From NCBI GenBank assembly GCA_021300535.1, contig JAJTED010000012.1, positions 1 to 63,607 on the forward strand: 63,607 nucleotides of DNA. The letters run 5' to 3'. A program made the position numbers and the translations under genes. The notes below the pieces were generated by a model. It was not told the DNA's origin. It saw only the letters and a program-made list of their open reading frames with translations, and made no database searches. How positions within the stretch are numbered: the first letter of the stretch is position 1; each line of letters starts with the position of its first letter. Source of the stretch: Planctomycetaceae bacterium (GTDB taxonomy: Bacteria; Planctomycetota; Planctomycetia; Pirellulales; UBA1268). Shown one piece after another: positions 27,912 to 63,607 of this stretch.

Positions 27912-28133
27912 CTGTGTTCCGGACAGGGAGGCGAGCGGGTCGGCGTGAGGATCGCGAGCGTGGCGGACCTTCGCCAGCGAGCGAACTCATGCCGCCCGCG
28001 AGCCGGCGATACACCAAAGTCGAATGCGATCGAGGCATCTGTGTTCCGGACAGGGAGGCGAGCGGGTCGGCGTGAGGATCGCGAGCGTGGCGGACCTTCG
28101 CCAGCGAGCGAACTCATGCCGCCCGCGAGCCGG
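27906..28133. repeat. 101-bp direct repeat, two copies
   Basis: Bases 27906-28006 and 28033-28133 are identical over 101 bases, separated by 26 unrelated bases. Each unit begins AGGCATCTGTGTTCC. CTAGGCAT also occurs at 27904 and again at 28151, at the outer edges. The stretch sits between the RND-transporter stop and the methyltransferase start and contains no convincing gene. Confidence 0.9.
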
Positions 28134-46415: not shown

Positions 46416-46498
46416 GCCGGAGTGGCGGAATGGCAGACGCGGCGGACTCAAAATCCGTTGCCCGCAAGGGCGTGTGGGTTCAAGTCCCACCTCCGGCA
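46416..46498 (+). tRNA. tRNA-Leu (anticodon CAA)
   Basis: The acceptor stem GCCGGAG pairs with CTCCGGC at 46491-46497, discriminator A at 46498. The anticodon stem GCGGA/TCCGT encloses CTCAAAA with anticodon CAA, reading UUG. A long variable arm (TTGCCCGCAAGGGCG) marks a class II tRNA, and the T arm holds GGTTCAAGTCC. The 3' CCA is not encoded (ACC then T). The last 19 bases overlap, on the other strand, the end of the CD39-like gene. Confidence 0.96.
46446..46498 (+). other. Left attachment-site candidate (attL) in tRNA-Leu
   Basis: Runs from the anticodon loop to the discriminator base; identical to 58959-59011 over 53 bases. The tRNA remains complete. Confidence 0.65.
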
Positions 46499-47679
46499 CC
46501 TTGTTCCCGGCTGTAGCGTGACAGCAGATAGCCCCGCGTCCAGGTGAGCATCGTGTCGCCGTTCTGGCGGGACGGCACGGCGCGGACGAGCCTGCGGCCG
46601 GTCCCTTCGAAGAGTCGTGTCAGCAGCACGTGCACGTAGGTGGCGTTGGCCGCCTGGGACTGCACGATCTCACGCTCGGCGATGCCCGGGAAGTTCGCCG
46701 CCGTGCCACAGTGGCCGCGAATCACGTCGCCCAGCCGCTCCGGATCCTCGTTGATATCCCAATACTCGGTCGCGTAGTAGACGCCGTCGATGCCCACGAA
46801 ATCCCCCCGGGCGTGCGCGAGGTCCGGGATGCCCGTCGCGGCGAGCCGATCGCGGACGATCGCTTCGTAGGTGGCTGAACAAGCGCCGAACTCATAACGG
46901 CCGTCCGCCGCAAGGCGATGCACACCAACCCCGTCGAGCACGTCGCCGTGGTCGAAAGCTGCGCGGAAGCCGCTGGGAAAGCAGACGGCCGAGCCTTCCG
47001 GTCCGAGGCGGCAGCGCATTTCCTTGCGGGCGTCGTCCTGGCCCAGGCCGAGAAAACTGCGGCAGGAGATGGCGAACGAGCGGCTGTTGAGTGTGACGCG
47101 GTGCACGTGCGGCACGACGTCGGGATCCTCGTCGGTGGGGAAGGTGAGCTGCAGCGACGAGCCGCCCACCTCGACGATTCCGACGGGCTCGAAGTCCCCG
47201 GTGAAGGCGTTCACGAGCACGTCGTTGAGATTGAGCCAGGTCCAGATGCCCTCCTCCTCGCTGCCGCACGTGGTCCGCACCTCGCCCACTGCGAAGCCCT
47301 GCCGGCGGATGCCGCCGCGGATCGTGTCGTAAAGACGGTCGACCGCGGCACGGCCATGCATCCCCTCGGCGTACCGCATGCCCGCCGTGGCCAGCAGGTT
47401 CACCTCGACCGCGGCCGGCTCGACCTCCAGCGCGGCGATGAAGCCGCGGGCATGCTCGAGCAGCGGATCGATGATCTCGGGCACGACGGTGGCTTGCGCC
47501 GCGGGATCGTCCGGGCGGACGAAGTTGTTGATCCCGTCTTCCTTCGCCGCCGACGCCATTGTGGAAAACTCCTGCTCGAGGAGTTTCTCCACATGGGCGA
47601 ACGGCCCCGGTGTGACGCGGTAGAGGAAGAGCCGGGTGCCGCTGCTACCGGCATCGATGACCGCGGTGTGGAGTGTCAT
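46480..47679 (-). CDS. GDA1/CD39-like nucleoside phosphatase (apyrase family)
   Basis: The 399-residue protein starts at an ATG overlapping the stop of the CadD-like gene. Four apyrase conserved regions are visible: DAGSSGTR (9-16), ATAGMR (97-102), [13 protein letters not shown] (140-152, with the catalytic-type Glu) and [10 protein letters not shown] (169-178). This actin-like fold splits nucleoside tri- or diphosphates. Unlike eukaryotic ecto-apyrases it has no signal peptide or membrane anchor, so it is predicted cytoplasmic. Family members are scarce in bacteria compared with Ppx/GppA, to which it is distantly related. Its last residues ([10 protein letters not shown]) and stop are written by the antisense of the tRNA-Leu 3' end. 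Confidence 0.8.
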
Positions 47680-48284
47680 GGCCGCACCGGCATCACGAGG
47701 CCACGGGCTCCGGCGAGAATGCACAGGCCGAGCACGATCAACACCCAGGGTAGGAGCCTCCCCGCCAGCCGCCGCATCGTGGCCGCGACCAAGCGATGGT
47801 TCACGAGGAGGTTGCCCCCGATGCACCACAGCCCGGTCATGACGGCGAAAATGACCGCGAACACCGGAATCACTTGGAACCGTTCACTAAAGACTGGCAC
47901 GTAGACGCCGAGATTGTCGCCGCCGTTCGCGGCCGTGACGCCCGCGACCGAGCAGGCCTGTGCGACGAGCGATCCGGCCGCCGCCGGTATGCCCTCCTCG
48001 TCGGCGGTCACGCCGGGCGGCGCTCGCCACGCCGACCAGAGCCGATGCAGGCCGAGCCCGAGCGGCGCGAATCCCAGGAGCGCCACCCACTCCGGCGGCA
48101 CCGCCATGGCGCATGCCGCGGCCGCGATGCTCACCGTCACGATCAAGCTGATGCCGAGAAACTTCCCGGCCACCACGGCCCGGCGATCGAGCCGCGAATC
48201 GGCGAAAAACGCCATCGTCAGGAAAATGTCGTCGATGTTCGTCGACGCAAAAAGCATGATCCCGACGACGATCGTCTCGAGCAT
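47676..48284 (-). CDS. CadD-like cadmium-resistance family transporter
   Basis: The 202-residue membrane protein is read from ATG 48282-48284. It begins LETIVVGIMLFASTNIDDIF, the first helix of CadD proteins with its acidic pair, then LGISLIVTVSIAAAACAMAV, ALLGFAPLGLGLHRLW, a charged loop, SVAGVTAANGGDNLGVYVPVF (the second, internally repeated half) and VFAVIFAVMTGLWC. CadD is of the LysE superfamily and exports cadmium or related cations; other members may move other solutes. The four-base overlap with the nucleotidase gene indicates one transcript and perhaps one task (inference). Confidence 0.75.
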   Translation of the reverse strand: MLETIVVGIMLFASTNIDDIFLTMAFFADSRLDRRAVVAGKFLGISLIVTVSIAAAACAMAVPPEWVALLGFAPLGLGLHRLWSAWRAPPGVTADEEGIPAAAGSLVAQACSVAGVTAANGGDNLGVYVPVFSERFQVIPVFAVIFAVMTGLWCIGGNLLVNHRLVAATMRRLAGRLLPWVLIVLGLCILAGARGLVMPVRP

Positions 48285-48529
48285 GGCGGGATGAATCCGG
48301 GCGCCGTTCAAGTGGGGACAAGACGACCGGAAGCCTAGCTGGCCGGGAGGCCTCTCACCATCGCGCCTGCAGGTGAGGCAGTCTGGGTGAGAATCTGGGA
48401 GGACTGCGCCGCGGAGGTGGGGCCGGGCCATCGCTTCGCGCCGCACATGGCTTGCCACAGCCCTTTCCGGACAGATATAGCCCCGTGGTTTTCCTCGTCA
48501 CTTTCGCCTTCCGATCGCGGTACCCGCCC
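48285..48529. other. Divergent gap between the CadD-like and lipoprotein genes
   Basis: The 245 bases likely carry both promoters. No gene, repeat copy or clear operator was seen. Confidence 0.4.
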
Positions 48530-49894
48530 ATGATCCGTATGCCCGCCACGAGTGGAATGCGCCGACCGCATTTCCTCGGAATCCTCACGGTGGTGGCCGT
48601 CTGCATGGCCGCGGCGGGCTGCATGGGCTCGTGGGCGATGCGGGGCACGCGGCTGGGATACAACAAAAGCGTCAGCTACACGGCCTCGCAGGAGATGCTC
48701 CTGAACATCGTGCGGATGCGGTACGGCGAGACACCCACCTTCCTCGACATGCCGAGTGTGGTCAGCCAGACCGAAGCCAGCATGGTCGGTGCCGGAGCGC
48801 AAAAATCGGCGTTCCAGGGCGCCTTGGATGGCGCATTCAATCTCCGCGACAGGCCGACGATCACCTACGCGCCCCGCACCGGCGAAGACATGGGAGCGTC
48901 GATGATCAAGCCCCTGAAGGCCGAGGCAATCCTCGACGTGTCCCCTGGCGACGATACCCGCATATTCCTGCTGGCGTTCGTGGACAGCATCAATGGCGTC
49001 CGCAACTCCCCCCAGGCCACCTCGCCGGCGAGCCGCACCCTCGAGGACAACGAAGAGTATCGCGACGGGGTCGATCTGTTCATCGGCCTGCAGAATCGCG
49101 GCGCGGTGAGAATGCGGGTGGCAGAGCTCGACGAGAAGCCGCAGGGTTCGCCGCTGTCCGCCAAGCATCTGATCGCCACCGACATGCTCGCCGCGGCCGA
49201 GAACGACTTTGTCTTCCAGATGACCGGCGACCAGGCCGTGCTGCTCAAGAGGTCGCGGTTCCTCGCCATGACGGTCGTTCCCGACGCCGTCGATGCGGCC
49301 GACGTGCACGAACTGGCAAGAATCTTCCGGCTGCAGCCGGGGCGAACGGCGTACCGTGTGAAGTCGCAGGAGGACGACGAGGTCGATCTCAACGCGGAGT
49401 CTGCAGCGGGCGATCCTCCGCTGCTCGTGGAGGACGTCGCGACGCCGCTGGCCATGGCCGGTGGGGGAGCGGCTGAACTGCTGCCGTCACCTGAAAATCC
49501 GGTTGTGCAGTCTGTCCCGGAGACGAGCCCCGGCTCGATGGAGCCACGAGACATTCTGTCGATCAACGTGCGTTCCGGCTACCAGGTGCTGGCATTCCTG
49601 TCGAAGGGCGTGGACGTGCCGGAACCGCACGTCCGCCGCGGCGTGGCTCCCATGTTTAAGGCACTCGACGGCCGGCCGTTCAACGGCCACCGCCTCACCA
49701 GAGGCCTGTTCCACGTCTGCGTTCAGAAGCACCGGCCGCTCCGGTGTGACACGGCGGTCTATTACCGCGGCTACTGGTTCTACATCCCGGACGACGACGT
49801 GCAGTCGCGGACGACGCTCAACTACGTGAAGCTCGTCATCGACATTCGTTCCGAGTCTGGTGACACTCCGGTGCTCACGCTGCCCGTCAACTGA
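48530..49894 (+). CDS. Large lipoprotein, first of a tandem paralogous pair
   Basis: The protein has about 454 residues from ATG 48530; ATGs at 48539 and 48557 are possible. The signal peptide (FLGILTVVAVCMAAAGC) ends in a lipobox AAGC followed by MGSWAMRGTRLGYN. Conserved with the next gene are YTASQEMLLNIVRMRYGE, TPTFLDMPSVVSQTEAS, FVDSINGVRNSP, LARIFRLQPGRTAYRVKSQE, LSINVRSGYQVLAFLSKGVDVP and YYRGYWFYIPDDDVQSRTTL. It has an extra acidic insertion around residues 320-350. No known enzyme motif appears; a surface or periplasmic binding or scaffold role is likely. Product unknown. Confidence 0.75.
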   Translation: MIRMPATSGMRRPHFLGILTVVAVCMAAAGCMGSWAMRGTRLGYNKSVSYTASQEMLLNIVRMRYGETPTFLDMPSVVSQTEASMVGAGAQKSAFQGALDGAFNLRDRPTITYAPRTGEDMGASMIKPLKAEAILDVSPGDDTRIFLLAFVDSINGVRNSPQATSPASRTLEDNEEYRDGVDLFIGLQNRGAVRMRVAELDEKPQGSPLSAKHLIATDMLAAAENDFVFQMTGDQAVLLKRSRFLAMTVVPDAVDAADVHELARIFRLQPGRTAYRVKSQEDDEVDLNAESAAGDPPLLVEDVATPLAMAGGGAAELLPSPENPVVQSVPETSPGSMEPRDILSINVRSGYQVLAFLSKGVDVPEPHVRRGVAPMFKALDGRPFNGHRLTRGLFHVCVQKHRPLRCDTAVYYRGYWFYIPDDDVQSRTTLNYVKLVIDIRSESGDTPVLTLPVN

Positions 49895-49899
49895 AGCCC

Positions 49900-51174
49900 G
49901 TGACGAAAACACCTCGAGACAAGCGCGTCGGCCAACCGCGATGCTTCGGGCTCGTCGTGGGCGTGATCGCATGCTCCACCGTGGCGACGGGGTGTCTGGG
50001 CTCGTGGGCGATCCGGGGCACACGGCTGCAGTACAACCAGAGTTTCAGCCACACCGCCTCCCAGGAGATGCTGCTCAACATCGTGCGGATGCGGTATGGC
50101 GAGATCCCCGGCTTCCTCGATCTTCCGACGGTTACCACGCTGACGGAGGCGAGCACCAGCGGCGCCGGGGCACAGCCCTCCGACACACCGCTCCAGGGCG
50201 TCTTCGGCGGAAAGTTCACGCTCAAAGACGAGCCGACGCTCAGTTACCAACCACGCTCTGGCGACAACCTCGCCAAGTCACTGATAAAGGCCTTCGAGGC
50301 GGAGTTGCTCCTCGACATCGCTCCGGGCAACGATACCCGCACGTTTTTGAGAGCGTTCGTGGATAGCATCAACGGCGTTCGCAACTCGCCCACCGCGACG
50401 TCCCCGGGAAGTTGCATCATCGAGCCCAACGACGAGTATCGCTACGCGATCGAACTGATCGACGGGCTGCAGTCCCGCGGCGCGTTGAAGGCGCGGGTTG
50501 CCAAGCGCGACGTGGAGGCTCACGGCAGGGTGCCCGCGAAAGACCTGCCGGGAGGGGGCAAGGTGCCCGGGGTAGGCATGGTCGCCGCCGCCAAGAAGGG
50601 ATACTTCTACGAGGTGTCTGGGGAGGAGGTGGCGCTTCTGAAGGAGTCCCGGTTGATGGCCCTCACGATTCCGCCCGAGCATCTGGGCGAGGCCGATTTC
50701 CAGGAGCTTGTGCGGATCTTTCGACTCGAGCCGGGCCGCAGCGTCTACGCGGTCAAGTCTCAGGAGAACGACGAGATCGATTACCTCGCCGAATCGGCCG
50801 GGGCCACGCCGCTCGGCGAGCCCACCGACACCATCACGCTCAACGTGCGGTCTGGCTACCAGGTGTTGGCCTTCCTTTCGAAGGGGGTGGATGTGCCGGA
50901 ATCGCACCTCCGCCGCGGCACTGTCGGCATATTCAAGGCGCCCGACGGCCGACCGTTCGATGCGAGGCAGATCACCCAGGGGCTGTTCAAGGTCTGTGTG
51001 CAGAAGCATCGACCGCTGCGGAGCGAACTGGCGGTGTACTACCGCGGCCACTGGTTCTACATCGCCGAGGATGACGTGCAGTCACGATCGACGCTCAACC
51101 TCGTCAAGTTCGCGATCGACCTCCAATCGCAGTCGGGCAACGCCGGGCCGGTGCTCACGCTCCCGCTCAACTGA
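49900..51174 (+). CDS. Large lipoprotein, second of the tandem pair
   Basis: The 424-residue protein starts at a GTG 5 bases after the previous stop. Its lipobox is ATGC (GVIACSTVATGC) and is followed by LGSWAIRGTRLQYNQSF, near-identical to the first copy. The pair align end to end (YTASQEMLLNIVRMRYGE versus HTASQEMLLNIVRMRYGE; SGYQVLAFLSKGVDVPE in both), while the middle (about residues 210-320) has diverged. It is a recent-looking tandem duplication whose members must be exported together. Function unknown. Confidence 0.8.
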   Translation: MTKTPRDKRVGQPRCFGLVVGVIACSTVATGCLGSWAIRGTRLQYNQSFSHTASQEMLLNIVRMRYGEIPGFLDLPTVTTLTEASTSGAGAQPSDTPLQGVFGGKFTLKDEPTLSYQPRSGDNLAKSLIKAFEAELLLDIAPGNDTRTFLRAFVDSINGVRNSPTATSPGSCIIEPNDEYRYAIELIDGLQSRGALKARVAKRDVEAHGRVPAKDLPGGGKVPGVGMVAAAKKGYFYEVSGEEVALLKESRLMALTIPPEHLGEADFQELVRIFRLEPGRSVYAVKSQENDEIDYLAESAGATPLGEPTDTITLNVRSGYQVLAFLSKGVDVPESHLRRGTVGIFKAPDGRPFDARQITQGLFKVCVQKHRPLRSELAVYYRGHWFYIAEDDVQSRSTLNLVKFAIDLQSQSGNAGPVLTLPLN

Positions 51175-51234
51175 CCGGCAGCCGGGCGGTTTGCGGCCCG
51201 ATCCCTGAGGGAATAGGCTTCCGCCGTAGGTGCC

Positions 51235-52434
51235 ATGAAATCTACGACCGCCATCACGATCGCAGCCGACACCGCCTTCGTCGATCGGCTCACGACCGTG
51301 CGCCGCGACATCCACCGCCATCCCGAGACCGCCTTCGAGGAGGTCCGCACGAGCGACCTGGTCGCCGCCTTCTTGACGAACCTTGGCATCGAGGTTCACC
51401 GCGGCCTCGGCAAGACCGGGGTCATCGGGACGCTGCGGGGCAAGCGACAGGGGCCCCGCCGCATCGGCCTGCGGGCCGACATGGACGCGCTCTTCATCAA
51501 GGAGGCCACGGGCCTCCCCCACGCCTCGAGTGTCGAGGGCACGATGCATGCCTGCGGGCACGACGGGCACACCACGATGCTGCTCGGGGCGGCTGAGAAA
51601 CTGGCCGCAGATCCGGACTTCACGGGAACCGTGCACTTCATCTTCCAGCCGGCCGAGGAGGGCCTCGGCGGCGGCCGCGTCATGATCGAGGAAGGGCTGT
51701 TTGCACAGTTTTCCTGCGATGCCATCTACGGTGTTCACAACGGGCCGAAGCTGCCACTGGGTAAGGTCGTGACCCGGCCCGGCCCGCTCGCCGCCGCGGG
51801 CGACACCTGGGAAGCCGTCTTCGAGGGCACCGGCGGCCACGGCTCCATGCCGCAGGCCGGCACCGACCCCACGGTGGCGGCAGCGCATTTCATCGTCGGA
51901 CTTTCCTCGATCATCTCCCGCAACGTGGCGGCCAGCGACACCGCGGTGCTCAGCGTCGGCCACATCCAGGCGGGCGACTACCACAGTCCGAATATCATTC
52001 CCGCCAAGGTGGTCGTCCGCGGCACGGCCCGCAGCTACACGCCGCAGGTCCGCGATACGCTCGAGCGCCGGCTCGGCGAACTCGCCGCCGGATGCGCGGC
52101 TGCGAGCGGAGGCACGGCCCGGCTGACTTACACCCGCCGGTATCCGCCCCTGGTCAACGCCCCGGAGCAGACGGCCCTCGCGGTGAAGGCCGCCGCAGCC
52201 GCTGTGGGCCCGGAAAACGTCCAGGGCGACTGCGAGCCGCTCGCCTTCAGCGAGGACTTCTCGTTCATGCTCGAGAAGGTGCCGGGAGCCTACGTGGTGA
52301 TCGGCAACGGCGACGCCCCGGATGCCCACTTCGTGCACACCCCGGAATACGACTTCAACGACGCGCTGATCCCGTTCGGCGTGGCGTATTGGATGAACGT
52401 CGTGGCCGCGGAACTGGGCGGCGCTGAGGCCTGA
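51235..52434 (+). CDS. M20-family amidohydrolase (N-acyl-amino-acid or hippurate hydrolase type)
   Basis: The 399-residue cytoplasmic enzyme shows the M20D layout: RRDIHRHPETAFEE, RIGLRADMDAL, MHACGHDGHTTMLLG with C107 and H109 as metal ligands, FIFQPAEEGLGGG (the catalytic Glu pair), a lid domain inserted about 190-305 (GGHGSMPQAGTDPTVAA), and LAFSEDFSFML with a C-terminal metal His in FVHTPEYDFND. It removes acyl groups from amino acids using a dinuclear metal centre. Exact substrate unknown. Convergent with the TAXI gene, stops 4 bases apart. Confidence 0.9.
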   Translation: MKSTTAITIAADTAFVDRLTTVRRDIHRHPETAFEEVRTSDLVAAFLTNLGIEVHRGLGKTGVIGTLRGKRQGPRRIGLRADMDALFIKEATGLPHASSVEGTMHACGHDGHTTMLLGAAEKLAADPDFTGTVHFIFQPAEEGLGGGRVMIEEGLFAQFSCDAIYGVHNGPKLPLGKVVTRPGPLAAAGDTWEAVFEGTGGHGSMPQAGTDPTVAAAHFIVGLSSIISRNVAASDTAVLSVGHIQAGDYHSPNIIPAKVVVRGTARSYTPQVRDTLERRLGELAAGCAAASGGTARLTYTRRYPPLVNAPEQTALAVKAAAAAVGPENVQGDCEPLAFSEDFSFMLEKVPGAYVVIGNGDAPDAHFVHTPEYDFNDALIPFGVAYWMNVVAAELGGAEA

Positions 52435-52437
52435 CGC

Positions 52438-53823
52438 CTACGTCGGCCGACCGCCGAGTGCCGCGAGCCGCTCCTCGGCCCGGCGACGCACGCTCTTGAT
52501 GGCCGATTCAAGCGCGAATGAACTCCGTGTGTCCTTATCGTCGAACCACGTGGCATCCACCAACGCCGCGATCTTGTCCGCCCGTGCGATGATGTCGCGG
52601 AGCTCCTCAGGATTCTTCGTCGACTTTGCGCGCAGATCAAAATCCCGCAACGACGAATAGAAATAGTCGAGATGCGTGGCAGAATTGTAGGACCTGAGAT
52701 TCTCGAGCCTCTTGAGGAGCGGATTGACGACCAGGAAGAATGCCACGAGATAGACCCAGACCTGGTTCAGGAGCGTGGCCAGCCAGAGCGGCAGCGAGTC
52801 GAAATAGCCGGGCACACCGCTGCTGTAAAACCGCCTGGCCACGGAACTGGAGGGGAACGAGCCGTCGGCATGCCGGGGAAACCCGCGGCTCTCGGTGAAG
52901 AACGAATTATCGTTGAAGGCCGCTTCCTGGGCGGCGATCAAGAGCGCCCACTGCACGGCCGGGTGGGTGCCCTTTTCGACGAGCAGATCGATGGTCGAGG
53001 CGAGCAGGGTGACGTCGCGATCGGGCCGAATCCGATCAAGGTCGATCGAGCCCTTGGGAACGACGACCGTCTGCAGGAACGGCAGCTTCTTGGTGTAGGC
53101 GTCGGCAAGCGTGAAGTCGTAGAGTCGCAGGCCGGGGTCCGCCAGGAGCCGTTGCGCCGTCTCCGATTCGAAGGCATCGACCAGGAACATCGCGTCGATC
53201 TCCCCGGCGAGCAGTTTCGTGGCCGCCTCGGCGTTGGGCAGTTGCACCCACTCGCCGCGTGGCTTGCCGTCGGTACGGTTCAGCCCCTCCACGATGCGGA
53301 ACAGCCGGTTGGAAACCGCGCCCTCCGGCCCGATCGCGATCGTCTTTTCCGCGAGCGCCGCAAACGGGTCGTCGCCGGCCAGGGCGTCCCCGCGGTGAAT
53401 CAGCATGATCGTTGCGAGGCCGACGCTGCCGAGCGATTCGAGCGTTGGGTCATCCTTCGACGTAAACGTTCCCGCCGTGATGAAACTGACACTGACTGCC
53501 GACCGATCATCCCCGAGATGCTCGAACCCCTCCACCTGGCCAGATGTCGGCACGAGCTCGAGCTTCAGCCCCAGCTCGGCGAGTCTGGTCGCCAGCCCAC
53601 GTGACCACCGGTCATAGACCGAACCGGCCTGCCCGCTGGCGATGGTGGTCGTGCGCGGTGGAATCGGGCGGAGCGCGACGGCCAGAATCACGAGGCCGAT
53701 CAGCGCCAGCAGCAGCGGCATCCGCTTATGGCGGATGATCCGCAGCCACCCCTGCACCTCATGCCGAAAATCGCGAAGGGTAGTGGTGAGCGTGTCGCGA
53801 AGCGTGTCGATGAACGTGGCCAT
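52438..53823 (-). CDS. TAXI-family TRAP-transporter-like solute-binding protein with membrane anchors
   Basis: The 461-residue protein has a TM helix near 34-52 (MPLLLALIGLVILAVALR) and then a TAXI binding-protein fold (TTTIASGQAGSVYDRWSRGLA, LELVPTSGQVEGFEHL, KTIAIGPEGAVSNRLF, LLAGEIDAMFLVDAFESE). A second TM helix near 360-380 (VWVYLVAFFLVVNPLL) is followed by a helical tail that looks like a coiled coil. TAXI proteins normally feed a TRAP DctQM-type permease; none is encoded here, so it is an orphan that may sense or hold a small acid at the membrane surface. Confidence 0.8.
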   Translation of the reverse strand: MATFIDTLRDTLTTTLRDFRHEVQGWLRIIRHKRMPLLLALIGLVILAVALRPIPPRTTTIASGQAGSVYDRWSRGLATRLAELGLKLELVPTSGQVEGFEHLGDDRSAVSVSFITAGTFTSKDDPTLESLGSVGLATIMLIHRGDALAGDDPFAALAEKTIAIGPEGAVSNRLFRIVEGLNRTDGKPRGEWVQLPNAEAATKLLAGEIDAMFLVDAFESETAQRLLADPGLRLYDFTLADAYTKKLPFLQTVVVPKGSIDLDRIRPDRDVTLLASTIDLLVEKGTHPAVQWALLIAAQEAAFNDNSFFTESRGFPRHADGSFPSSSVARRFYSSGVPGYFDSLPLWLATLLNQVWVYLVAFFLVVNPLLKRLENLRSYNSATHLDYFYSSLRDFDLRAKSTKNPEELRDIIARADKIAALVDATWFDDKDTRSSFALESAIKSVRRRAEERLAALGGRPT

Positions 53824-53971
53824 GGTTCAGGTTTCTGCATCCCCTGCTGATGACAACTTTGATTCCTGGAGCGTCGGCGTGCAATAACCATCCACGCAGC
53901 AGCGGTCAGGGATCGGCCCTGACGAAAATGATTGTTGTCCAGTGAAGTTGTTGGAGAATAGCAAAACTGTC

Positions 53972-54922
53972 ATGCCGCCCAAGAAACGAAAGCCTGTTCC
54001 GGCCCGCCGGCCTCCGTCTGCCGGCCGTCGGCCCGTCGAGGTAATCGAGGGTCCGATCGCACGCGACCGCACGCTGGGCAAGGCGACGACCTGGGTCATC
54101 GCGGGTGAGGTGCGAGTGTGCCGCGGCGTCACGCTGAAGATTGCCGACGGCGCGACGCTCCTGATCGCCAACGGCGTGGTGCCGAAGAGCCGGCTTCGCC
54201 GCGCGGCGCTGATCTTCGACCCCGGCTCCGCGCTCGTCGCCGGCCGTTTCGCGGTGCGGGCGTGCAATGATGAACACCGCCCCGTCAAAGTCGCCGACAA
54301 CGGCGGCCTCTGGTTTTTGGGCACATTCGCGGCGGGAAGTAAGGACGGCATCAGCGTGAAGAAGAGCCGGGGCGGCGAGCCGTCGTCGTTTCGGGCGCGG
54401 TCGATTACGGCCTCGCATCTCGGCCGCCGCGACACCTACCGCAGCCCGAAGACGGGCAAGGACCTCGACATCGGGGACGACATCGACGGCTTCTCAGTCG
54501 TCGGCGTGGGTCCGGACGAGTGGCGAGTGCGGGAGGTGCGCAGCCTCCACTCCGCCGACGACGGGTTCGACGTCACGAACTCGCACGTTCGGCTCGATCG
54601 CCTCGAGGTGCGGCACCCTGCCGAGGACGGCATCAACGTGTCGAGCAGCCGAATCGAGATCCGTCGCAGCCTCGTGCTCGACGTGCCGAAGTCACGGGAG
54701 GCCGACCGCGACCTCTTCGATCTGGAGACCGACGACGGCGGCTCCTTCGTGGAGCTGCCGAAGGGCTGCTGGGTGCGGCTGCGGGGCGTGTTCGGCGACC
54801 AGTTCGCCCTCTCCTCTCCGGACATGCCGCGGCCGAATACGGCTGCCGACAACGAGCGGCCGTATGCCTACTCGGGCCGACTAGCATCCGACGCGGTCAT
54901 CCACTCGCTGACCGCCGACTGA
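53972..54922 (+). CDS. Right-handed beta-helix repeat protein
   Basis: The 316-residue protein is taken from ATG 53972; a GTG at 53942 is possible and neither has a good ribosome site. A basic N-terminus (PPKKRKPVPARRPPS) leads into repeated rungs: GEVRVCRGVTLKIADGATLL, ALIFDPGSALVAG, HSADDGFDVTNSHVRLDRL, HPAEDGINVSSSRIEIRR. The 'DDGFDV' and 'EDGINV' turns are the sort found in parallel beta-helices of carbohydrate lyases and adhesins. There is no signal peptide, odd for this fold, so a missed upstream start or cytoplasmic role is possible. Function unknown. Confidence 0.65.
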   Translation: MPPKKRKPVPARRPPSAGRRPVEVIEGPIARDRTLGKATTWVIAGEVRVCRGVTLKIADGATLLIANGVVPKSRLRRAALIFDPGSALVAGRFAVRACNDEHRPVKVADNGGLWFLGTFAAGSKDGISVKKSRGGEPSSFRARSITASHLGRRDTYRSPKTGKDLDIGDDIDGFSVVGVGPDEWRVREVRSLHSADDGFDVTNSHVRLDRLEVRHPAEDGINVSSSRIEIRRSLVLDVPKSREADRDLFDLETDDGGSFVELPKGCWVRLRGVFGDQFALSSPDMPRPNTAADNERPYAYSGRLASDAVIHSLTAD

Positions 54923-54939
54923 CCGCCGGCCGGACGGCG

Positions 54940-55768
54940 TCAATATTGGATCGCGATGCCGGCGTCGGAAAAGAACGGTGCGGCCTCATCCGTGAGCCCC
55001 CACCCCACACGCAGGCCGATCTCGACGTTGCGGGTGATGCTGTAGTGCGTGCCGGGACTGAAGAAGGGCCGCTGCGTGTCCTCCACGAGCCCCTGCGTGT
55101 AGGAGCCGAACCATTCGGCGTGTACCTCCCAGCGCTCGGTCACGGGTGCCCGCAGTACGACCGACGGGCTCCAGCGGCTGATCCAGTCGACGGCGCCCTC
55201 GGAGTAGGCGTAGCGGATCGCACTGTCGAGCCGCCAGTCGTCCCAGAACTCCCAGCCCGCGACGATCGTCGCCACGGGCACCGTGCCGAACACGTCGCCA
55301 TACGTGGGCGTCGCCACCTCCATGATGAAGCAGCTGTCGGGCAGGACCGTCTTGGCGCGACGTGGCCAGTTTGAAGCCGTAGAGGATGCTCGACTTGTAG
55401 AGTGTGCTGCCGTCGAGTGTGCCCTCGCCCACTTCCACGCTCGTCACGACGTTGCCCTGCGAGCCGATGCCGTAGTTGACGCCGAACCGCCACTCCCACC
55501 ATTCGTTGGCTCCCTGGCGGATCAGCAGCTCGGGGTAGTTGTTCGTCGGCAGCCCGGACAGGTTGTCGATGAACACATAGGAGCCCTCCACGAGGCCGCG
55601 ATCGCGCCCAACGCAATAGGCGGAGGGAGTGAAGGCGTCGCGGTCGGCGTCGCGCTCGAAGGCGACCGCGCTGCGGTGCCCGTGCGGCGCCGCAATCAGG
55701 GCAATGCCGGCCACGGCGAGCAGGGTCGATGAGTGCAGGAAATCGCGGCGCACGGCGAGCCTCGGCAT
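54940..55768 (-). pseudogene. Outer-membrane barrel (Phenol_MetA_deg-like) gene with a one-base frameshift
   Basis: From ATG 55766-55768 the frame gives a signal peptide (LLAVAGIALIAAPHGHRSAV), then strand-like runs GANEWWEWRFGVNYGIGSQG, TLYKSSILYGFKLATSRQ. Near 55358 the frame slips by one; the other frame carries on LPDSCFIMEVATPTYGDVFG, AGWEFWDDWRLDSAIRYAYS, HAEWFGSYTQGLVEDTQ and RVGWGLTDEAAPFFSDAG to the stop at 54940. Alternating hydrophobic residues and aromatic girdles fit a barrel of about 12 strands. The slip may be a sequencing error. No substrate known. Confidence 0.65.
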
Positions 55769-55993
55769 CCATACAGGATGCACGGGAGGTCGGCCTTCCC
55801 GGGGGGCTGCGGGCAGGGTTTCGGAGAACATCCTTACGGTTTATGCGGCCTGCCAGCCTGCCCTCCATGCCCTGGCTGGATTGTCTCGGGCATCCGTGGC
55901 CGGGCGGCTTGGCGAGACTTGGCCAGGTTGGGTAGCCTCGACCCACCTTGGTCACTTCGACCGGGAGCCAACTCCACACCCACGAGGCCCGCG

Positions 55994-56425
55994 ATGGCGA
56001 AGTCCGCGAAGAAGACACCCCGGAAGACCGCGAACCCAACCCTCGCCCACCAGAAGCGCACGGCCAAGGCTATTGCTTCGGCGATCGCCAAGGCCCGAAA
56101 GGCCGCGGGCAAACGTGGCGACGATGCCGACATCCACGTGCACGTCGGCGACGTCGTGATGATGGGCTTCGACGAGGCGGTCGATGCGGAGGAGTGGGGT
56201 GCGCGGGAAACCAACAACGAACTGGGCCGGGCGAAGGGCCGCGGTCGGGCCGGCCGCGACACGGACGCGCAGGACGAGAAGAATCGCAAGGTGCACCGCA
56301 CGATCACGCTGCGCAAGGGAGCGATGAAGCTCCAGGCCGTGGAAAAGTCGCACCCGGTCAAAAAGAAAAAGGCCGCGACGAAGGTCGCGAAGAAGGCCCC
56401 GAAAAGGAAAACTCGCCGCCGCTAG
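55994..56425 (+). CDS. Small lysine-rich basic protein
   Basis: The 143-residue protein starts at ATG 55994 with GAGG about 7 bases upstream. It opens AKSAKKTPRKTANPTLAHQK, has an ordered middle IHVHVGDVVMMGFDEAVDAEEWG and a very basic tail of KKAATKVAKKAPKRK type. The ends resemble histone H1-like or other DNA-binding bacterial tails; the middle is not like H1. DNA compaction is a possibility by composition only. The neighbouring porin has no obvious link. Confidence 0.55.
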   Translation: MAKSAKKTPRKTANPTLAHQKRTAKAIASAIAKARKAAGKRGDDADIHVHVGDVVMMGFDEAVDAEEWGARETNNELGRAKGRGRAGRDTDAQDEKNRKVHRTITLRKGAMKLQAVEKSHPVKKKKAATKVAKKAPKRKTRRR

Positions 56426-56549
56426 GCCGGGGCAGGCTAGGCAAGCCCTGCCGGTGGTGCCGTCCGGGACGGCTTGGCGGTGCGGATTCCGCCGATAAAC
56501 GCGGTCGTAGGGCTGGCCACGACGGCCGCCCGCCGGAGACGACCCAGCC

Positions 56550-57959
56550 ATGCACAAGCGCGGCCCGTGGATGCTCTGCGCCATCGCTGCGCTGCTGCTC
56601 GGGCCGTTGCCGGCCCCCGCGCGTGCCGACATTTCGCCGCCGCAGGATGTCTACGAACTCCGCGCCCGCGACCCGCAGCAACCGGTGCAGCCGCCGGAGC
56701 GGTTACTTTTCCCGCGTTGGCAGGAAGATCGCCGGGCTTCGATCTACGGCTGGCTCGACTGCGGCATCGGCGGCAACACGCTGGGGAGCGACTTCAACGG
56801 CCCCGTCGGCCTCCAAGACCGCAACCTGCAGGCGATGATGAACCAGCTCTATCTCGTCGGCGAACGACTCATCGACGTGGATTCGGACGACTGGCAGTGG
56901 GGTGCGCGGGTCGATCTGCTCTACGGCACCGACGCCTGGCAGACGAACGCCCGCGGCCTCGACGCCTATCCCTTCAACCAGTTCGACAACTTCGGCGTTC
57001 CGCGCTGGGGCTCCAGCCGCTACTACAGCCTCGCGATGCCGCAGCTCTACGGCGAGATCGCCCGTGGAGATTTTTCGGTGCTCGTCGGCCACTTCTACTC
57101 GCCGCTCGGCTACGAGACCGTGCCGGCCGTGGGCAATTTCTTCTACACGCACTCCAACACGTTCATGTATGGAACGCCGAACACGCACACGGGCGTGCTC
57201 GTCTACTGGCAGCCGGATGACCGCATCCGGATCGGGAGCGGCGTGACCAACGGTTGGGACAACTTCTCAGACGGCGTCCCCGCCGCCGCCAATCCCGACT
57301 ACCCCGGCGCGGCGAGCAACCTCGCCTATCTCGGCACCCTGACGCTCGCGTCGGAGGACGATAGCCAACTAATAACCGTGGCGATCTCGACCGGCAACGA
57401 ATACACGCCGGTGATCGGTCCTGCCGGTGCGTCGCAGGGCGTGATGGTGGGCAATCGGTCGATGATCACGGCGTATTTTCAGAACGAGGTCGCCGAACGG
57501 CTGACCGCGGTCACGGAAGGCTCCGCGGCCTGGCAGTTCAACGCCGACACCGGCCTGCAAAACCGCGGCCAACCCGGCGGGCTCGCCCAGTGGTACGGCG
57601 TCTCGCAGTATCTCTACCGCGGCCTCACCGACAGGCTCTCCGCCGGCGTGCGGCTGGATTGGTTTCGCGACAACAACGGCTTCCGCATCGCCTACCCCGC
57701 CCGCAACGCGGCCACGAACACGTCGCCCGTCGCCGCCGGGTTCGCCGGCAACCTGTGGGCGGCGACATTCGGCTGCAACTGGACGCCGACAGCCAACTGG
57801 ATCGTCCGCCCGGAAGTGCGATACGACTGGTACACGCCGTCAGCCTACGGCACGGGCGCCCTCCCCTTCGGCCCCATCACGACGCGGCCCGACGGGCTCG
57901 TCACGGGCAACGCCTTAAGCCAGTGGTATCTCGGCTGCGACGCCATCTTCCAGTTTTGA
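56550..57959 (+). CDS. Outer-membrane porin, beta-barrel porin-2-like
   Basis: The 469-residue protein has a signal peptide (MLCAIAALLLGPLPAPARA) and an approximate 16-strand barrel rich in aromatic residues: SIYGWLDCGIGGNTLGSDFNG, WGARVDLLYGTDAWQT, RYYSLAMPQLYGEIARGDFS, VGHFYSPLGYETVPAVGNFF, YLYRGLTDRLSAGVRLDWFRD, and a C-terminal CDAIFQF with a final aromatic residue, as barrel-assembly signals have. The BBP2 family is common in planctomycetes and probably lets small solutes cross the outer membrane. It lies near the right end of the putative island. Confidence 0.8.
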   Translation: MHKRGPWMLCAIAALLLGPLPAPARADISPPQDVYELRARDPQQPVQPPERLLFPRWQEDRRASIYGWLDCGIGGNTLGSDFNGPVGLQDRNLQAMMNQLYLVGERLIDVDSDDWQWGARVDLLYGTDAWQTNARGLDAYPFNQFDNFGVPRWGSSRYYSLAMPQLYGEIARGDFSVLVGHFYSPLGYETVPAVGNFFYTHSNTFMYGTPNTHTGVLVYWQPDDRIRIGSGVTNGWDNFSDGVPAAANPDYPGAASNLAYLGTLTLASEDDSQLITVAISTGNEYTPVIGPAGASQGVMVGNRSMITAYFQNEVAERLTAVTEGSAAWQFNADTGLQNRGQPGGLAQWYGVSQYLYRGLTDRLSAGVRLDWFRDNNGFRIAYPARNAATNTSPVAAGFAGNLWAATFGCNWTPTANWIVRPEVRYDWYTPSAYGTGALPFGPITTRPDGLVTGNALSQWYLGCDAIFQF

Positions 57960-58033
57960 ACATGCCCTAGAAACAGCCTTCGGCCTCGTCGCCTCCCGCA
58001 GCGTGATCGCGGGGCCGGCGGGAGAAGCTGCGA

Positions 58034-58519
58034 TTACTGTTTGAGGTATTCGGCCAGCGTGTCGGTGTGGTGGCCGATCACCTTCCACTGGCCATTTTCC
58101 TTACGGAATGTGGTCGTCGCACGAATCGACACGGGCTGCGATTTGCCATTGAAAACGTGTTCGCCATCTTCGTGGTAGCAGACAACCGCCAACGTCTACC
58201 CGGCCAAGACGTGCACCTTCTCCGGATCGACTTTGCCCGCCAGTTTCTTCGCCGCCTGCCTGTCCCAATACTGCTCTATCTGTGGTCAGCCGTGCAGCAT
58301 GCCGCCTGCAGGGTCCATGTATGTCACGTCATCGGCATGGGACCATAGGGTCTTGATCGGCGCTGCGTCGCCTGTGAAAACTTTATTGAGCGCCTGGTGA
58401 TAAGCGGTCAGAGCTGCATGGCCCCCCTGCGTGTCGGGATCGGCAGCATGAAGGGAAGGTGAAATAATGAGAGACATCGATGCAGACACGACCAGCACTG
58501 ACAGGGTTGGGTAACGCAA
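58034..58519 (-). pseudogene. NTF2-like (SnoaL/DUF4440) exported protein gene with two in-frame stops
   Basis: A TTG at 58517-58519 preceded by AGGA starts a signal peptide (TLSVLVVSASMSLIISPSLH) and the domain ALTAYHQALNKVFTGDAAPI, LWSHADDVTYMDPAGGMLHG. The same frame runs on through two stops, TGA at 58286-58288 (normally Trp) and TAG at 58196-58198 (normally Gln), to QIEQYWDRQAAKKLAG, VVCYHEDGEHVFNGKSQPV and WKVIGHHTDTLAEYLKQ, ending at a normal TAA. Both stops fit single transitions. The frame itself is intact, so this is real decay and not a sequencing slip. Family members are small cone-shaped enzymes or binders. Confidence 0.8.
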
Positions 58520-58958
58520 GGTCTTTCCTCGCCGGAGAACGATTCGATCGGACGGTTGATCTTTAAAATCCGAGGCAAGGAAGTCTAATAGAGCGGCTTG
58601 CGGTCCGTCTTTCTGTGTTGTCGCTGTCGTGCGGACTGCCGCTGCCGCCCCTGAAATTCGATGATTGCCCGCCCGCGTAGAAGCCGGTTGCCCAATGTTC
58701 GACGCATGGCACGGCCGCCCCACTGCGGAGCCCCGCCATGCCCTACAAGCGGATTCTCTTCCGTGCCGGCGACATCATTCGGTTTCACAGCCTGCAGAAC
58801 GAGATCGGCGAGGAGGCAGACGGCCCTGCCTCGCTGTTAGGCAAACTGTTAGGAAAATCGCCTCGCACGCGATTTTCGGCGCTTCGGCATCACGCGCCGT
58901 TCCCGAGCAATAGGCATGATCGCGGGATGACTGCCACATGAAGTACAATGTCGATTGC
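58520..58958. other. Gap before the right attachment site, possible small frame
   Basis: This 439-base stretch is less GC-rich than its surroundings. A plus frame at 58738-58941 (67 codons, beginning MPYKRILFRAGDIIRF) uses TTA leucine codons, rare in the window; it might be a remnant. No ribosome site supports it clearly and no family is recognised. Confidence 0.3.
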
Positions 58959-59011
58959 ACTCAAAATCCGTTGCCCGCAAGGGCGTGTGGGTTCAAGTCC
59001 CACCTCCGGCA
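58959..59011 (+). other. Right attachment-site candidate (attR): tRNA-Leu 3' fragment
   Basis: A perfect 53-base copy of the tRNA-Leu segment 46446-46498, from the anticodon loop to the discriminator. No 5' half precedes it, so it is not a functional tRNA gene. Confidence 0.75.
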
Positions 59012-59267
59012 TTGCAGAAACGACTGGCAGACCGGTGCCGCGGTCTGGCGGCGCCATGCGGCTGATCGCGTTCATCCCGGGGGACGGTAGGCGTTTCGAG
59101 AGCCGCCCCAAGACGCCGGCAGCCCTGCTCCGGATCCGTCACCGTCGGGCGCCAACAGGCAGATCGGCCAGCCCGACTACGGCTCGGCTGGCGGCTCCTG
59201 CAACCGGGAATTCGAAATCGATGCCAGCCTGTTTCAGGACCCCATGCCCCGCGTCCGGTGGACGTGC

Positions 59268-60311
<1,044 letters not shown>

Positions 60312-60529
60312 GGGGGCTCCAGCGGAAGACGAATCCGGCGGTGGGGAGGATACCGGCAGCACCGCGGCCCGGCAATCGACCGCGTCGGTCGCGACGGCGA
60401 CGGGATCGAGTGATTCGCAGGCTGGGATGAGTGCACGCTCCTCCCTCGGAGAGCCGGTGCCGCGATGATTCCCCGGCTCGGCGACCGGCCCTGGTGCAGT
60501 ATCCGCGTGAGTGCCGCGGCGCACCCGAT
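60312..60529. other. Gap between the nuclease and aldo/keto reductase genes
   Basis: The reductase frame is open through it, but the upstream codons show no family similarity. No gene or repeat seen. Confidence 0.35.
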
Positions 60530-61423
60530 TCATTCCGCGGCCGCGGGCGGCGGCTCGATCCGCAGCATCGGCTTCAAGGCTCGATAGGTGCTCGGGCCGA
60601 TGCCGTCCACCTCGAGGAGGTCGGTGAGCCGCCGATAGGGCCGCCGCTCGATGATCCGGTTGGCGAGCGTCTCGCCCACGTGCGGCAGCCGCATCAGGTC
60701 CTGCCGCGAGGCCGAGTTAATCTCGACGACGAAGCCCGGCGGCGGCCCAGCCCCGTCGACCGCCACGGCCAACTCCCGCGCCTCCTCCCGCTCGCGGCGG
60801 CGCTCCGCCGGCAGGGAGGACCAGTCGGTGTGGGCCCAGATGCCGGCGCCCCGCTGGGCGGCCTGGAGCTCCAGGTCGGCGAGCGTCTCCCGGTACTCCT
60901 CCGCCGAGTCGCCCGTGAGCGTCGTGCGGCCGACTCCATAGGCCCGGGCCAGGCCGGCCGAGACGAGGTGGGCGGCGAGATCGCGGCCCGCAGCGTCGAA
61001 TACGAAGGCGTAGATCCGCTTGTGGCGGCCGTCGCCCCGAGCGTCGGCGAAACTGGTGTGGATCGTGAACGGCCGCGTCAGAAACCGCCGCGTCTCCGCC
61101 GTCGCCTGACGGGCGAGATCCTTCGCCAAGGCGATCGACGCCGCAGCGTCGGGCCGCGCCGAGGTGATCCCGAAGTAGCGCCGCTGACTCCTCAGCCGGC
61201 GGGCGTCGGTCTCGCCGCTGACATGCTGCTCCAGGCAGTCGGCGGCGTAGAGCCGCACCGTATGCACTTCGCCATCGGGCGTGCGCACCGGAAAGCTGTC
61301 GCCGTCGGCCCAGTCGGCGGCCACGAGCGTGCAGCCCTCGACGGCCACGAGGTCCGCGGCGGCCGCGACGCCCGCCAGCCAGACCGCGGCCCAGCCCATG
61401 ATCGCCCAGCATCGAGCAGGCAT
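60530..61423 (-). CDS. Exported thermonuclease-like protein with C-terminal helix-hairpin-helix
   Basis: The 297-residue protein has a signal peptide (IMGWAAVWLAGVAAAA). An SNase-like barrel (about 24-190) contains ADGDSFPVRTPDG, VRLYAADCLEQH (Arg, Asp and Glu of the active site) and DGRHKRIYAFVFDAAGRDL. The region 235-290 is a ComEA-like helix-hairpin-helix (INSASRQDLMRLPHVGETLANRI, LLEVDGIGPSTYRALKP), which binds DNA without sequence preference. The combination suggests an extracytoplasmic DNase or a DNA-uptake helper; which of these is not clear. Gene follows the YceH-family gene after 17 bases. Confidence 0.8.
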   Translation of the reverse strand: MPARCWAIMGWAAVWLAGVAAAADLVAVEGCTLVAADWADGDSFPVRTPDGEVHTVRLYAADCLEQHVSGETDARRLRSQRRYFGITSARPDAAASIALAKDLARQATAETRRFLTRPFTIHTSFADARGDGRHKRIYAFVFDAAGRDLAAHLVSAGLARAYGVGRTTLTGDSAEEYRETLADLELQAAQRGAGIWAHTDWSSLPAERRREREEARELAVAVDGAGPPPGFVVEINSASRQDLMRLPHVGETLANRIIERRPYRRLTDLLEVDGIGPSTYRALKPMLRIEPPPAAAE

Positions 61424-61440
61424 CGCTACACCCCCCCGGA

Positions 61441-62211
61441 TCAGCCACCGAGATCGGCCTCGAGCCGGGACAGGCGATCGCGGAGGTCGGCCACGGTCCG
61501 CTCCAGTTCGATCACGCGATCGGCGAGGGCGTCGGCCACGGGCGCGGCGGGCCGCAGCGCCGCAACCTCGGCCACGGGCGGCGCGGGAAGCACGTCCTCG
61601 TCGTCCGCGACCGCCGCGGCCTGTGCAGGGGCCGCGGCCCCCGCCATGCCCAGCTGCATCCGCACCTTCTCCAGTTTTTCCGCCGGCAGGAGGCCGTGCG
61701 TCAGCATCCGCCCCCGCCCCGGCGGCGAAAGCCAGACGACGAGCCCGCGGTCGGCGAGCCGATCGAGATGCCCGCGAAGGACATCGAGGTCGGCGATCGG
61801 GTCCATGCGGCTCGCCCGGCCGCGAAGGTCGCCCTCGGTCTGCTCGCCACGCAGCAGCAGTTCACCGAGAATCGCCAGTTCTTCCTTCTCGACCCCCAGC
61901 CATTCGTAGGCCAGATGGCGGTACCGCGGGATCTTCCCGCTGCCGTACACCTCGGCCATCGCCCCGCACTTCCGCAGGCCCGCCACGGCCCGCATCACCT
62001 GTTCTTCATCGACCGTCATCACCGGATCGCGGTTGCTCTTTTGGTTGCAGCCGGTGACCAGGGCGTTGAGCGAGAGCGGATACTGGTCGGGCGTGGTCTT
62101 CGCCTTCTCGATGAGCACGCCGAGCACCCGCCGCTCGGTGGCGTCGAGCGGACGGATCGTGCCGGCGCCCGAGGCGGGCGGCGGATCGGTTTGGGATGGG
62201 TGGTCGGGCAC
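61441..62211 (-). CDS. YceH/DUF480-family protein
   Basis: The 256-residue protein starts at a GTG at 62209-62211. The paired winged-helix core (about 20-180) shows DATERRVLGVLIEKAKTTPDQYPLSLNALVTGCNQKSNRDPVM, given here only in pieces: ERRVLGVLIEKAKTTP, YPLSLNALVTGCNQKSNR and LLLRGEQTEGDLRGRASRM. A C-terminal coiled coil (ALADRVIELERTVADLRDRL) replaces the short E. coli tail. Function of the family is not established; its fold suggests DNA or protein binding. It lies between the DUF1501 and nuclease genes on one strand. Confidence 0.88.
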   Translation of the reverse strand: MPDHPSQTDPPPASGAGTIRPLDATERRVLGVLIEKAKTTPDQYPLSLNALVTGCNQKSNRDPVMTVDEEQVMRAVAGLRKCGAMAEVYGSGKIPRYRHLAYEWLGVEKEELAILGELLLRGEQTEGDLRGRASRMDPIADLDVLRGHLDRLADRGLVVWLSPPGRGRMLTHGLLPAEKLEKVRMQLGMAGAAAPAQAAAVADDEDVLPAPPVAEVAALRPAAPVADALADRVIELERTVADLRDRLSRLEADLGG

Positions 62212-62229
62212 GCGACTCCGATCAGAAGG

Positions 62230-63607
62230 CTAGACGAGAAGGTCGGGGATCACGCGGGCGTGCTCGACGCCCGTGAGCCGCTGGTCGAGACCGAGATGGC
62301 GGTAGCTGAACCGCTCGTGGTCGAATCCCATGAGGTGCAGCACCGTGGCATGGAAGTCGCGGATGTGCACCGGATCCTTGACGATGTTGTAGGAGAAGTC
62401 GTCGGTCTCGCCGTAGATCTGCCCCGGCCGGGACCCGCCGCCGGCCATCCACATCGTGAAACACCGCGGATGGTGGTCGCGGCCGTAGTTCTCCCGGGAG
62501 AGGCCTCCCTGGGAGTAGACCGTGCGGCCAAACTCCCCGCCCCAGACGATGAGCGTCTCGTCGAGGAGACCGCGGGCCTTCAGGTCCTGCACGAGCCCGT
62601 AGCAGGCCTGGTCGATGTCCTTGCAGAGGCCCGGCATCCGACCACCCACGTCGGCATGCGTGTCCCAGTTGTTGATGTAGACCTGCACGAACCGCACACC
62701 TCGTTCCACCATTCGGCGGGCCATGAGGGTCGCGTTGGCGAACGAACCAGGTTTCCGCACCGCGTCTCCATACAGGCCGAGGGTGTGGGCCGACTCCGTC
62801 GCCAGGTTCGCCAGCTCCGGCACGCTCGACTGCATGCGGAAGGCCATCTCGTACTGGGCGATCCGTGTCCGCGTCTCGGGATCGCCGATCTGTTCGAGCG
62901 TGCGTTGGTTCAGGGCCTGGAGGCCGTCGAGCGTCTGCCGGCGGACCTCGGCCGACACGCCGGGAGGATTGTTGATGTAGAGGATGGGGTCGCCGGCGGA
63001 GCGGAAGCTCACGCCCGCATGCTCGCCGGGGAGGAATCCACTCGACCACAGCCGGGCGCCGATCGCCTGCGTATTTCCCCCCGCCGTCGGCTTTGCGACG
63101 AGCACGACGAACGTCGGCAGGTCGTTATTGAGCGACCCGAGCCCGTAGCTCAGCCACGATCCCAGGCACGGGCGGCCCGTGATCTGGTTGCCGGTCTGCA
63201 TGTAGGTGATCGCCGGCTCGTGGTTGATGGCCTCGGTGTGCATCGACCGGATGAAGCACATCTCGTCGACCATCTTGGCCGTGTGCGGCAGGAGTTCGCT
63301 CACCCACATCCCGTTCTGCCCGTGCTGGGCGAACTTGAACTTCGACGGAGCGATCGGAAATCGCTTCTGCCCTGAAGTCATCGTGGTCAGCCGCTGGCCG
63401 TTGCGGATGCTCTCGGGGAGATCCTTGTCGTACCACTCGTCCATCTTCGGCTTGTAGTCGAACATGTCCTGCTGCGGCGGTCCGCCCACCATATGCAGGT
63501 AGATCACGTGCTTCGCCTGCGGGGCGAAATGCGGGCCGATCGCCCCCGCCACCCGCTCGACGCCCGCGGCGGGGGGCGTCACGGTGCTGCCGTGGCCGTG
63601 CTCGGCG
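62230..63607 (-). CDS. DUF1501 protein, 5' end cut by the window
   Basis: 459 codons are visible and the frame is still open at the window edge, so the N-terminus (normally with a Tat signal) is missing. Typical runs are HVIYLHMVGGPPQQDMFDYK, LPHTAKMVDEMCFIRSMHTE, NHEPAITYMQTGNQITGRPC, VQVYINNWDTHADVGGRMPG, VWGGEFGRTVYSQGG and NYGRDHHPRCFTMWMAGGG, which carry the alkaline-phosphatase-superfamily metal ligands. DUF1501 genes in planctomycetes usually form pairs with DUF1549/1553 cytochrome c genes; the partner would lie beyond base 63607. Thought to be exported sulfatase-like enzymes. Confidence 0.93.
   Translation of the reverse strand, partial: AEHGHGSTVTPPAAGVERVAGAIGPHFAPQAKHVIYLHMVGGPPQQDMFDYKPKMDEWYDKDLPESIRNGQRLTTMTSGQKRFPIAPSKFKFAQHGQNGMWVSELLPHTAKMVDEMCFIRSMHTEAINHEPAITYMQTGNQITGRPCLGSWLSYGLGSLNNDLPTFVVLVAKPTAGGNTQAIGARLWSSGFLPGEHAGVSFRSAGDPILYINNPPGVSAEVRRQTLDGLQALNQRTLEQIGDPETRTRIAQYEMAFRMQSSVPELANLATESAHTLGLYGDAVRKPGSFANATLMARRMVERGVRFVQVYINNWDTHADVGGRMPGLCKDIDQACYGLVQDLKARGLLDETLIVWGGEFGRTVYSQGGLSRENYGRDHHPRCFTMWMAGGGSRPGQIYGETDDFSYNIVKDPVHIRDFHATVLHLMGFDHERFSYRHLGLDQRLTGVEHARVIPDLLV

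Follow-up and report, generated by a model that had tools for sequence, protein, structure and literature searches.

A 12.5-kb island between tRNA-Leu(CAA) repeats in an uncultured planctomycete, probably the immobile remnant of an integrated element

Introduction

Prophages and other integrative elements that use a tyrosine integrase to target tRNA genes cross over near the anticodon loop and displace the 3' half of the gene. The island described here lies in a contig of a Planctomycetaceae bacterium (assembly GCA_021300535.1), the whole 63,607 nucleotides of which are referred to below as the window; it resembles such elements in its target, an apparent crossover near the anticodon loop and a displaced 3' half. 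Unlike them, it holds no matched integrase, relaxase, T4SS or phage structural gene.

Among the titles and abstract openings listed by a literature search none concerned this tRNA-Leu hotspot, which is no proof of absence from print. The closest published cases are the Dehalococcoides ssrA islands (PMC3146451) and the cis-mobilizable elements, or CIMEs (PMC5704250). The ssrA islands have as borders an RNA gene and repeated copies of the 3' end of that gene, and 15 of them are without an integration module (PMC3146451). They share with the present island the RNA-gene 3' repeats as borders, the accessory cargo and, in those 15, the missing integration module, as well as a conserved motif, distinct from the RNA gene, immediately before each repeat; they differ from it in pairing tmRNA with a serine recombinase, as opposed to tRNA-Leu(CAA) with a tyrosine integrase, and in that the left arm appears to have been lost in the window (PMC3146451). 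CIMEs are alike in having lost their integration genes and in bearing att cores at their borders, but keep both attL and attR, whereas the island keeps an arm at attR alone and its mobilisation would be putative (PMC5704250).

Results

The island is delimited by positions 46446-46498, inside an intact tRNA gene, and 58959-59011, which are identical at 53/53 bases with a spacing of 12,513 (Table 1). A search of the 4.01-Mb host assembly (197 contigs, 86% complete) found this 53-bp sequence in two copies only, and its chance origin is excluded because the longest repeat in mononucleotide shuffles of the window reached only 16-19 bp in 20/20 trials. Among the exact direct repeats of at least 25 bp in the window it ranks second; a 101-bp exact local direct repeat at 27906/28033 (27906-28133) is longer. 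Between the two copies the GC content is 65.8%, and all 170 windows of equal length to the left are higher (69.0-70.8%).

Table 1. Features of the island and its borders, in positions of the window
Feature	Coordinates	Strand	Basis
Intact tRNA-Leu (CAA), target gene	46416..46500	+	ARAGORN (sole tRNA-Leu (CAA) of the window)
Left copy of 53-bp att core (tRNA nt 31-83)	46446..46498	+	Exact repeat
GDA1/CD39 nucleoside phosphatase (apyrase-like)	46480..47829	-	PF01150, E 2.5e-20; stop codon inside tRNA 3' end
CadD-like cadmium resistance transporter family protein	47676..48458	-	PF03596, E 6.1e-17
Lipoprotein-like protein, first of tandem paralogous pair	48452..49894	+	No Pfam match; alignment with second
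Lipoprotein-like protein, second of tandem paralogous pair	49900..51174	+	No Pfam match; alignment with first
M20 peptidase/amidohydrolase	51235..52434	+	PF01546, E 5.6e-43
TAXI/NMT1-like substrate-binding protein (weak)	52438..53823	-	PF16868, E 0.003, below cut-off
Protein without Pfam family	53942..54922	+	No Pfam match; homologue in family genome G083
Gene broken across two frames; 3' part with weak Phenol_MetA_deg likeness	54940..55831	-	ORFs; PF13557, E 7.8e-4, below cut-off
Protein without assigned family	55733..56425	+	ORF; homologues in G083 and G001
BBP2 beta-barrel porin	56550..57959	+	PF07642, E 1.2e-54
Right attachment arm of tRNA-Leu element family; direct repeats CTGTTAGG at 58834 and 58846	58819..58942	+	Profile built without the window
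attR: tRNA nt 28-83, C at nt 30, then exact 53-bp core	58956..59011	+	Comparison of 3' copies
Right flank: aldo/keto reductase, HHH/SNase protein, DUF480, large conserved protein	59012..63607	.	Pfam and relatives

Neither an integrase or other mobility gene nor a phage structural gene was matched in the island, whether by Pfam on 14 translations or by PHROGs on 10 proteins, and Pfam on the same 14 translations matched no relaxase or T4SS gene of the kind expected of an ICE or IME. The host assembly has seven PF00589 matches, all on contigs other than that of the window; being incomplete, the assembly could lack an integrase that the genome possesses. A broken ORF at ~58025-58720, with no Pfam match and a likeness to SnoaL by eye only, lies beyond the porin gene. 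A preliminary description of the locus had claimed a perfect 53-bp repeat of the tRNA-Leu 3' end, partial decay of the cargo and the absence of an integrase from the island. All three hold: the repeat is exact and far beyond chance, the decay is visible in the broken ORF and in the gene split over two frames at 54940-55831, and the Pfam and PHROG searches just cited agree on the integrase. The tandem lipoprotein-like paralogues (48452-51174) fall outside Pfam and have distant relatives mostly in Planctomycetota; the mean pLDDT of their structure prediction is 50.7.

That the cargo stems from a phage or a satellite was considered and rejected, only 2/10 island proteins matching PHROGs, both in families of unknown function and the stronger of them being the M20 protein. 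The integrase and the phage-derived regulatory or packaging genes of a phage satellite were not found among the 10 island proteins compared with PHROGs, the paired lipoproteins have no relative in viral contigs, and the arm-plus-core pattern has no exact match there. The suggestion that the element might be "domesticated or satellite-like" is better borne out in its first half, with which the missing left arm and the cut apyrase gene described below agree, and is not supported in its second by the PHROG and viral-contig searches.

Relatives of the cargo are scattered among the 72 genomes of the family, the host included: the second lipoprotein is matched in six, the apyrase in six (two of the matches being weak) and the TAXI-like protein in three, and searches with these three proteins revealed no close copy of the island elsewhere. 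A 5.3-kb contig of genome G003 keeps the order apyrase, CadD, both lipoproteins and TAXI without the M20 gene, and a 12.8-kb contig of G083 carries seven island genes in shuffled order. No close match to the cargo cluster was found within 18.1 kb (G001) and 11.3 kb (G083) downstream of the tRNA, and the ten cargo-cluster contigs of relatives contain neither an arm match nor a tRNA-Leu. With nothing to tie the cargo to the element family, no arm match on its contigs and a location apart from the tRNA in G001 and G083, the cargo might have arrived separately from the element.

The attachment site is best preserved at the right end. A right-arm profile for which 10 of the other 15 right ends were used, with the window excluded, matches the window at 58819-58942 with an E value of 3.4e-12 (runner-up, E 0.16); five ends dissimilar by eye were omitted from it (that of G087, two in G063 and two in G064), and three rather diverged ones were retained (G079, G017b and G086). 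The base at tRNA nt 30 is G in all 42 tRNA genes read and C in 12/16 copies that comprise the 3' part only, that of the window among them; the four without C are one in G063, both in G064 and that in G087. Because it combines the profile match with C at nt 30, the right end of the island is, as judged from these comparisons, a genuine attR. A conserved arm, often with the CTGTTAGG repeats, is found inside most 3' copies, and the hotspot ends of G063 and G064 have other sequences in place of the CTGTTAGG arm. The 13 bases past the right copy of the window equal those past the tRNA of G003 and may be native or the rim of another element. Searching with the right-end DNA (58560-58958) gave matches in 4/72 genomes, the host included, namely to the arm region in G009 (two) and G079 and to a 66-bp stretch in G083.

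Two side observations concern this arm. G009 has an extra right-arm match (L175:7511-7638) apart from its one 3'-only copy, and the same contig holds another arm-region match, also apart from that copy (G009:C70:33799-33889). In several elements the right arm directly adjoins a right-end gene with the motif HEWAHALAWN or HEWGHALAWN, which by eye resembles an HExxH metallopeptidase (L180:6948-7595; L176:2299-3003); the gene has no match in the window.

The left junction has a different appearance. A left-arm profile drawn from seven genomes, the integrase-bearing G002 and G025 among them, has no match near 46499 up to E 10, and matches the window instead at the right-end repeats (58834-58862, E 7.6e-5). 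Measured against the definition of a CIME, attR is therefore retained and an attL with its arm, according to the left-arm profile near 46499, is not. The apyrase of the window reads on past the usual end of its homologues and through the junction to a stop codon inside the tRNA; three other apyrase-like ends stop just before, after SRP, SG or SRA, the last being a 31-residue fragment in G085. With no left arm, no integrase and an apyrase gene that ends inside the tRNA, the left end of the island is, on this evidence, not an intact attL. Since the apyrase continues through the junction and its homologues stop before it, the left boundary looks like a secondary break that cuts the end of the apyrase gene, unlike the element ends seen in relatives. 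Precise excision by a related integrase would be unlikely, given the absence of a detectable left arm and the cut through the apyrase 3' end.

Across the family, 3'-only copies of tRNA-Leu(CAA) number 16 in 13/72 genomes, the host included, and start at tRNA nt 28-39; this count leaves aside a G007 piece at a contig edge, a G062 match to nt 21-83 and a 5' piece (nt 1-32) in G004. By such measures tRNA-Leu(CAA) is evidently an integration hotspot in this planctomycete family. An intact tyrosine integrase lies 103 bp (G063), 149 bp (G025) or 171 bp (G002) downstream of the tRNA, and integrase pieces follow it in G003 and G024. That of G063 is recognised by PF00589 (E 5.9e-9) and by a PHROG integrase family (E 1.6e-26) and is followed by a phage-type DNA polymerase. 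The hotspot integrase is matched in 10/72 genomes, several times at other places, and has no match in the host assembly; none was matched in the island, and the family integrase is found at the same tRNA in relatives. Searched by itself, the G063 integrase finds no relatives among viral contigs, nor is it matched in 50,697 phage records. Five family integrases were aligned, four of them at 53-76% identity to the first, and the alignment has 15 relatives among IMG/VR contigs. In three of these (L247, L255, L259) the integrase match is followed after 61-119 bp by the start of a tRNA gene, and none of the 15 has an arm match.

Of 43 loci read, 42 have a whole tRNA, and a second 3' copy occurs within the stretch read in four of these (the window, G084, G086 and G087); it occurs in none of the 12 other intact loci with at least 13 kb downstream. 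Genomes G084 and G017, which belong to different genera, show 96.9% identity in the 682 bp that begin with the tRNA and 99.0% identity over 2,385 bp spanning the right copy and beyond, against 72.8% in the upstream chromosome; the interior of the G017 element differs from that of G084, though the ends are common to both. DNA at the tRNA-Leu(CAA) site has evidently moved between genera. We note that the G084 islet is 2.2 kb long (L164:8550-10709), has a gene for a ParE-like toxin close to the tRNA and contains no integrase match, and that G063 has two 3'-only copies 1.1 kb apart, enclosing a tandem islet of small ORFs only (L165:9030-10230).

Comparison of the flanks bears on what the site looked like before integration. 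A GlmU-like gene, matched in 51/60 genomes, adjoins tRNA-Leu(CAA) in 15/20 loci scanned, that of the window included. The DUF480 gene of the right flank is matched in 55/72 genomes and in 12 of these is found on the same contig as tRNA-Leu(CAA) or a 3'-only copy. It lies downstream of a single-copy tRNA at 3.5 kb in G011 and 1.8 kb in G066, with other genes between; 2.4 kb (window), 1.7 kb (G064) or 3.9 kb (G024) from a 3'-only copy; at greater distances downstream in G086 (9.7 kb), G063 (17 kb) and G035 (31 kb); and on the opposite side of the tRNA in 4/12 cases (G018, G014, G016 and G028). These positions of DUF480 support integration at this tRNA, in a frequently rearranged neighbourhood. 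Between tRNA and DUF480, G011 has a PIN-domain gene, a larger gene and a 26-residue remnant of the gene found at the right end of other elements.

Integration into tRNA-Leu, as the preliminary description had it, is well supported by the intact tRNA with its exact, displaced 3' copy, the attR arm of the family and flanks that lie close together around a single tRNA in two relatives. The comparison with an empty site, which it had proposed, came out in part: G011 and G066 have a single tRNA, flanks near each other and no island, and agree by gross synteny only, no base-exact empty site having been found. The contrary case that it had named, the island genes at this position with no repeat, was not encountered at the 41 other intact tRNA loci read, downstream of which the only likenesses to island genes are weak paralogues at 34-43% identity (G005, G016 and G021).

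Discussion

We consider it probable that the island is an integrated element which lost its integrase end and left fixed cargo behind, and most likely that the 12.5-kb block is by now an immobile, domesticated remnant. An element carrying a tyrosine integrase of the family that targets tRNA-Leu(CAA) would have inserted into the tRNA gene. Strand exchange, as both structure and comparison support, would have taken place 3' of nt 30, so that the element would have supplied a new tRNA 3' half and the old one would have been displaced by 12.5 kb. The right end has stayed recognisable as attR by profile, and the left end, with the integrase and the left arm, would later have been lost by deletion or an illegitimate join, an event that may have put the apyrase gene directly against the tRNA, as it is found at the junction. 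The remaining accessory cargo (porin, transport, nucleotidase and peptidase genes) would then probably be fixed and immobile. Some findings sit uneasily with this: the element-like sequence is limited to ~140 bp at the right end, the cargo itself has no tie to the element family, a base-exact empty site did not turn up, DUF480 is on the opposite side of the tRNA in 4/12 genomes, the hotspot ends of G063 and G064 are without the CTGTTAGG arm, and a join exactly at the tRNA end would be a coincidence under random deletion.

The first of these points also speaks for an unlikely alternative, in which a chromosomal rearrangement lodged a cluster of accessory genes, not cargo of the element, next to the tRNA and ahead of an old attR. 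The extension of the apyrase past its usual end at the junction and the finding of the cluster apart from the tRNA in G001 and G083 are consistent with such an event; the lowered GC across the whole interval argues against it, and inspection recognised no second breakpoint mark between the cargo and the right arm. Quite unlikely, in our judgement, is a non-autonomous island that is still mobile because a tRNA-Leu-family integrase from another element acts on both cores in trans. None of the four loci with a second 3' copy has a family integrase matched downstream, G086 retains its left arm together with the innermost part of the right arm, and G084 and G017 are far closer from the tRNA onward than upstream of it. 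Against this stand the armless left end of the island, a left end in G084 that also has no CTGTTAGG repeats, a host assembly in which the family integrase finds no match, and the want of any close island copy elsewhere. Movement in trans is possible, as integrase-less islets recur at the site and DNA there has crossed genera, but is less likely than a fixed remnant. The least probable explanation is an assembly chimera across the 53-bp repeat. The host assembly is fragmented into 197 contigs, and in G018, G019, G028 and G074 contigs break off no more than ~130 bp from this tRNA; yet G011 and G066 both have DUF480 in the neighbourhood of the GlmU-tRNA pair, and the distance of DUF480 from the 3' copy in G064 and G024 is like that in the window.

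The reading of the island as a fixed remnant of an integrated element adds a clear case of one-sided decay trapping cargo in the chromosome to a kind of island already known, and the comparisons on which it draws locate an integration hotspot at a tRNA gene, together with the integrase family and the attachment signature that belong to it, in an uncultured planctomycete family. A broader proposal, which we regard as unlikely, is that islets without an integrase, some of them single-armed, form a population at tRNA-Leu(CAA) in the family and are carried between genera by integrases acting in trans; the window island would be a large metabolic member of it. If it were true that such islets move, they would offer a testable system of trans-mobilisation.

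Next to the right copy is an aldo/keto reductase gene (59242-60391) that is 94.6% identical over 1,151 bp to its counterpart in G030, a member of another genus, and 90.8% identical over 1,043 bp to that in G018. The nearby DUF480 is only 64% (G030) and 73% (G018) identical at the protein level, and since the reductase gene is so much the closer of the two, it looks to have been transferred on its own.
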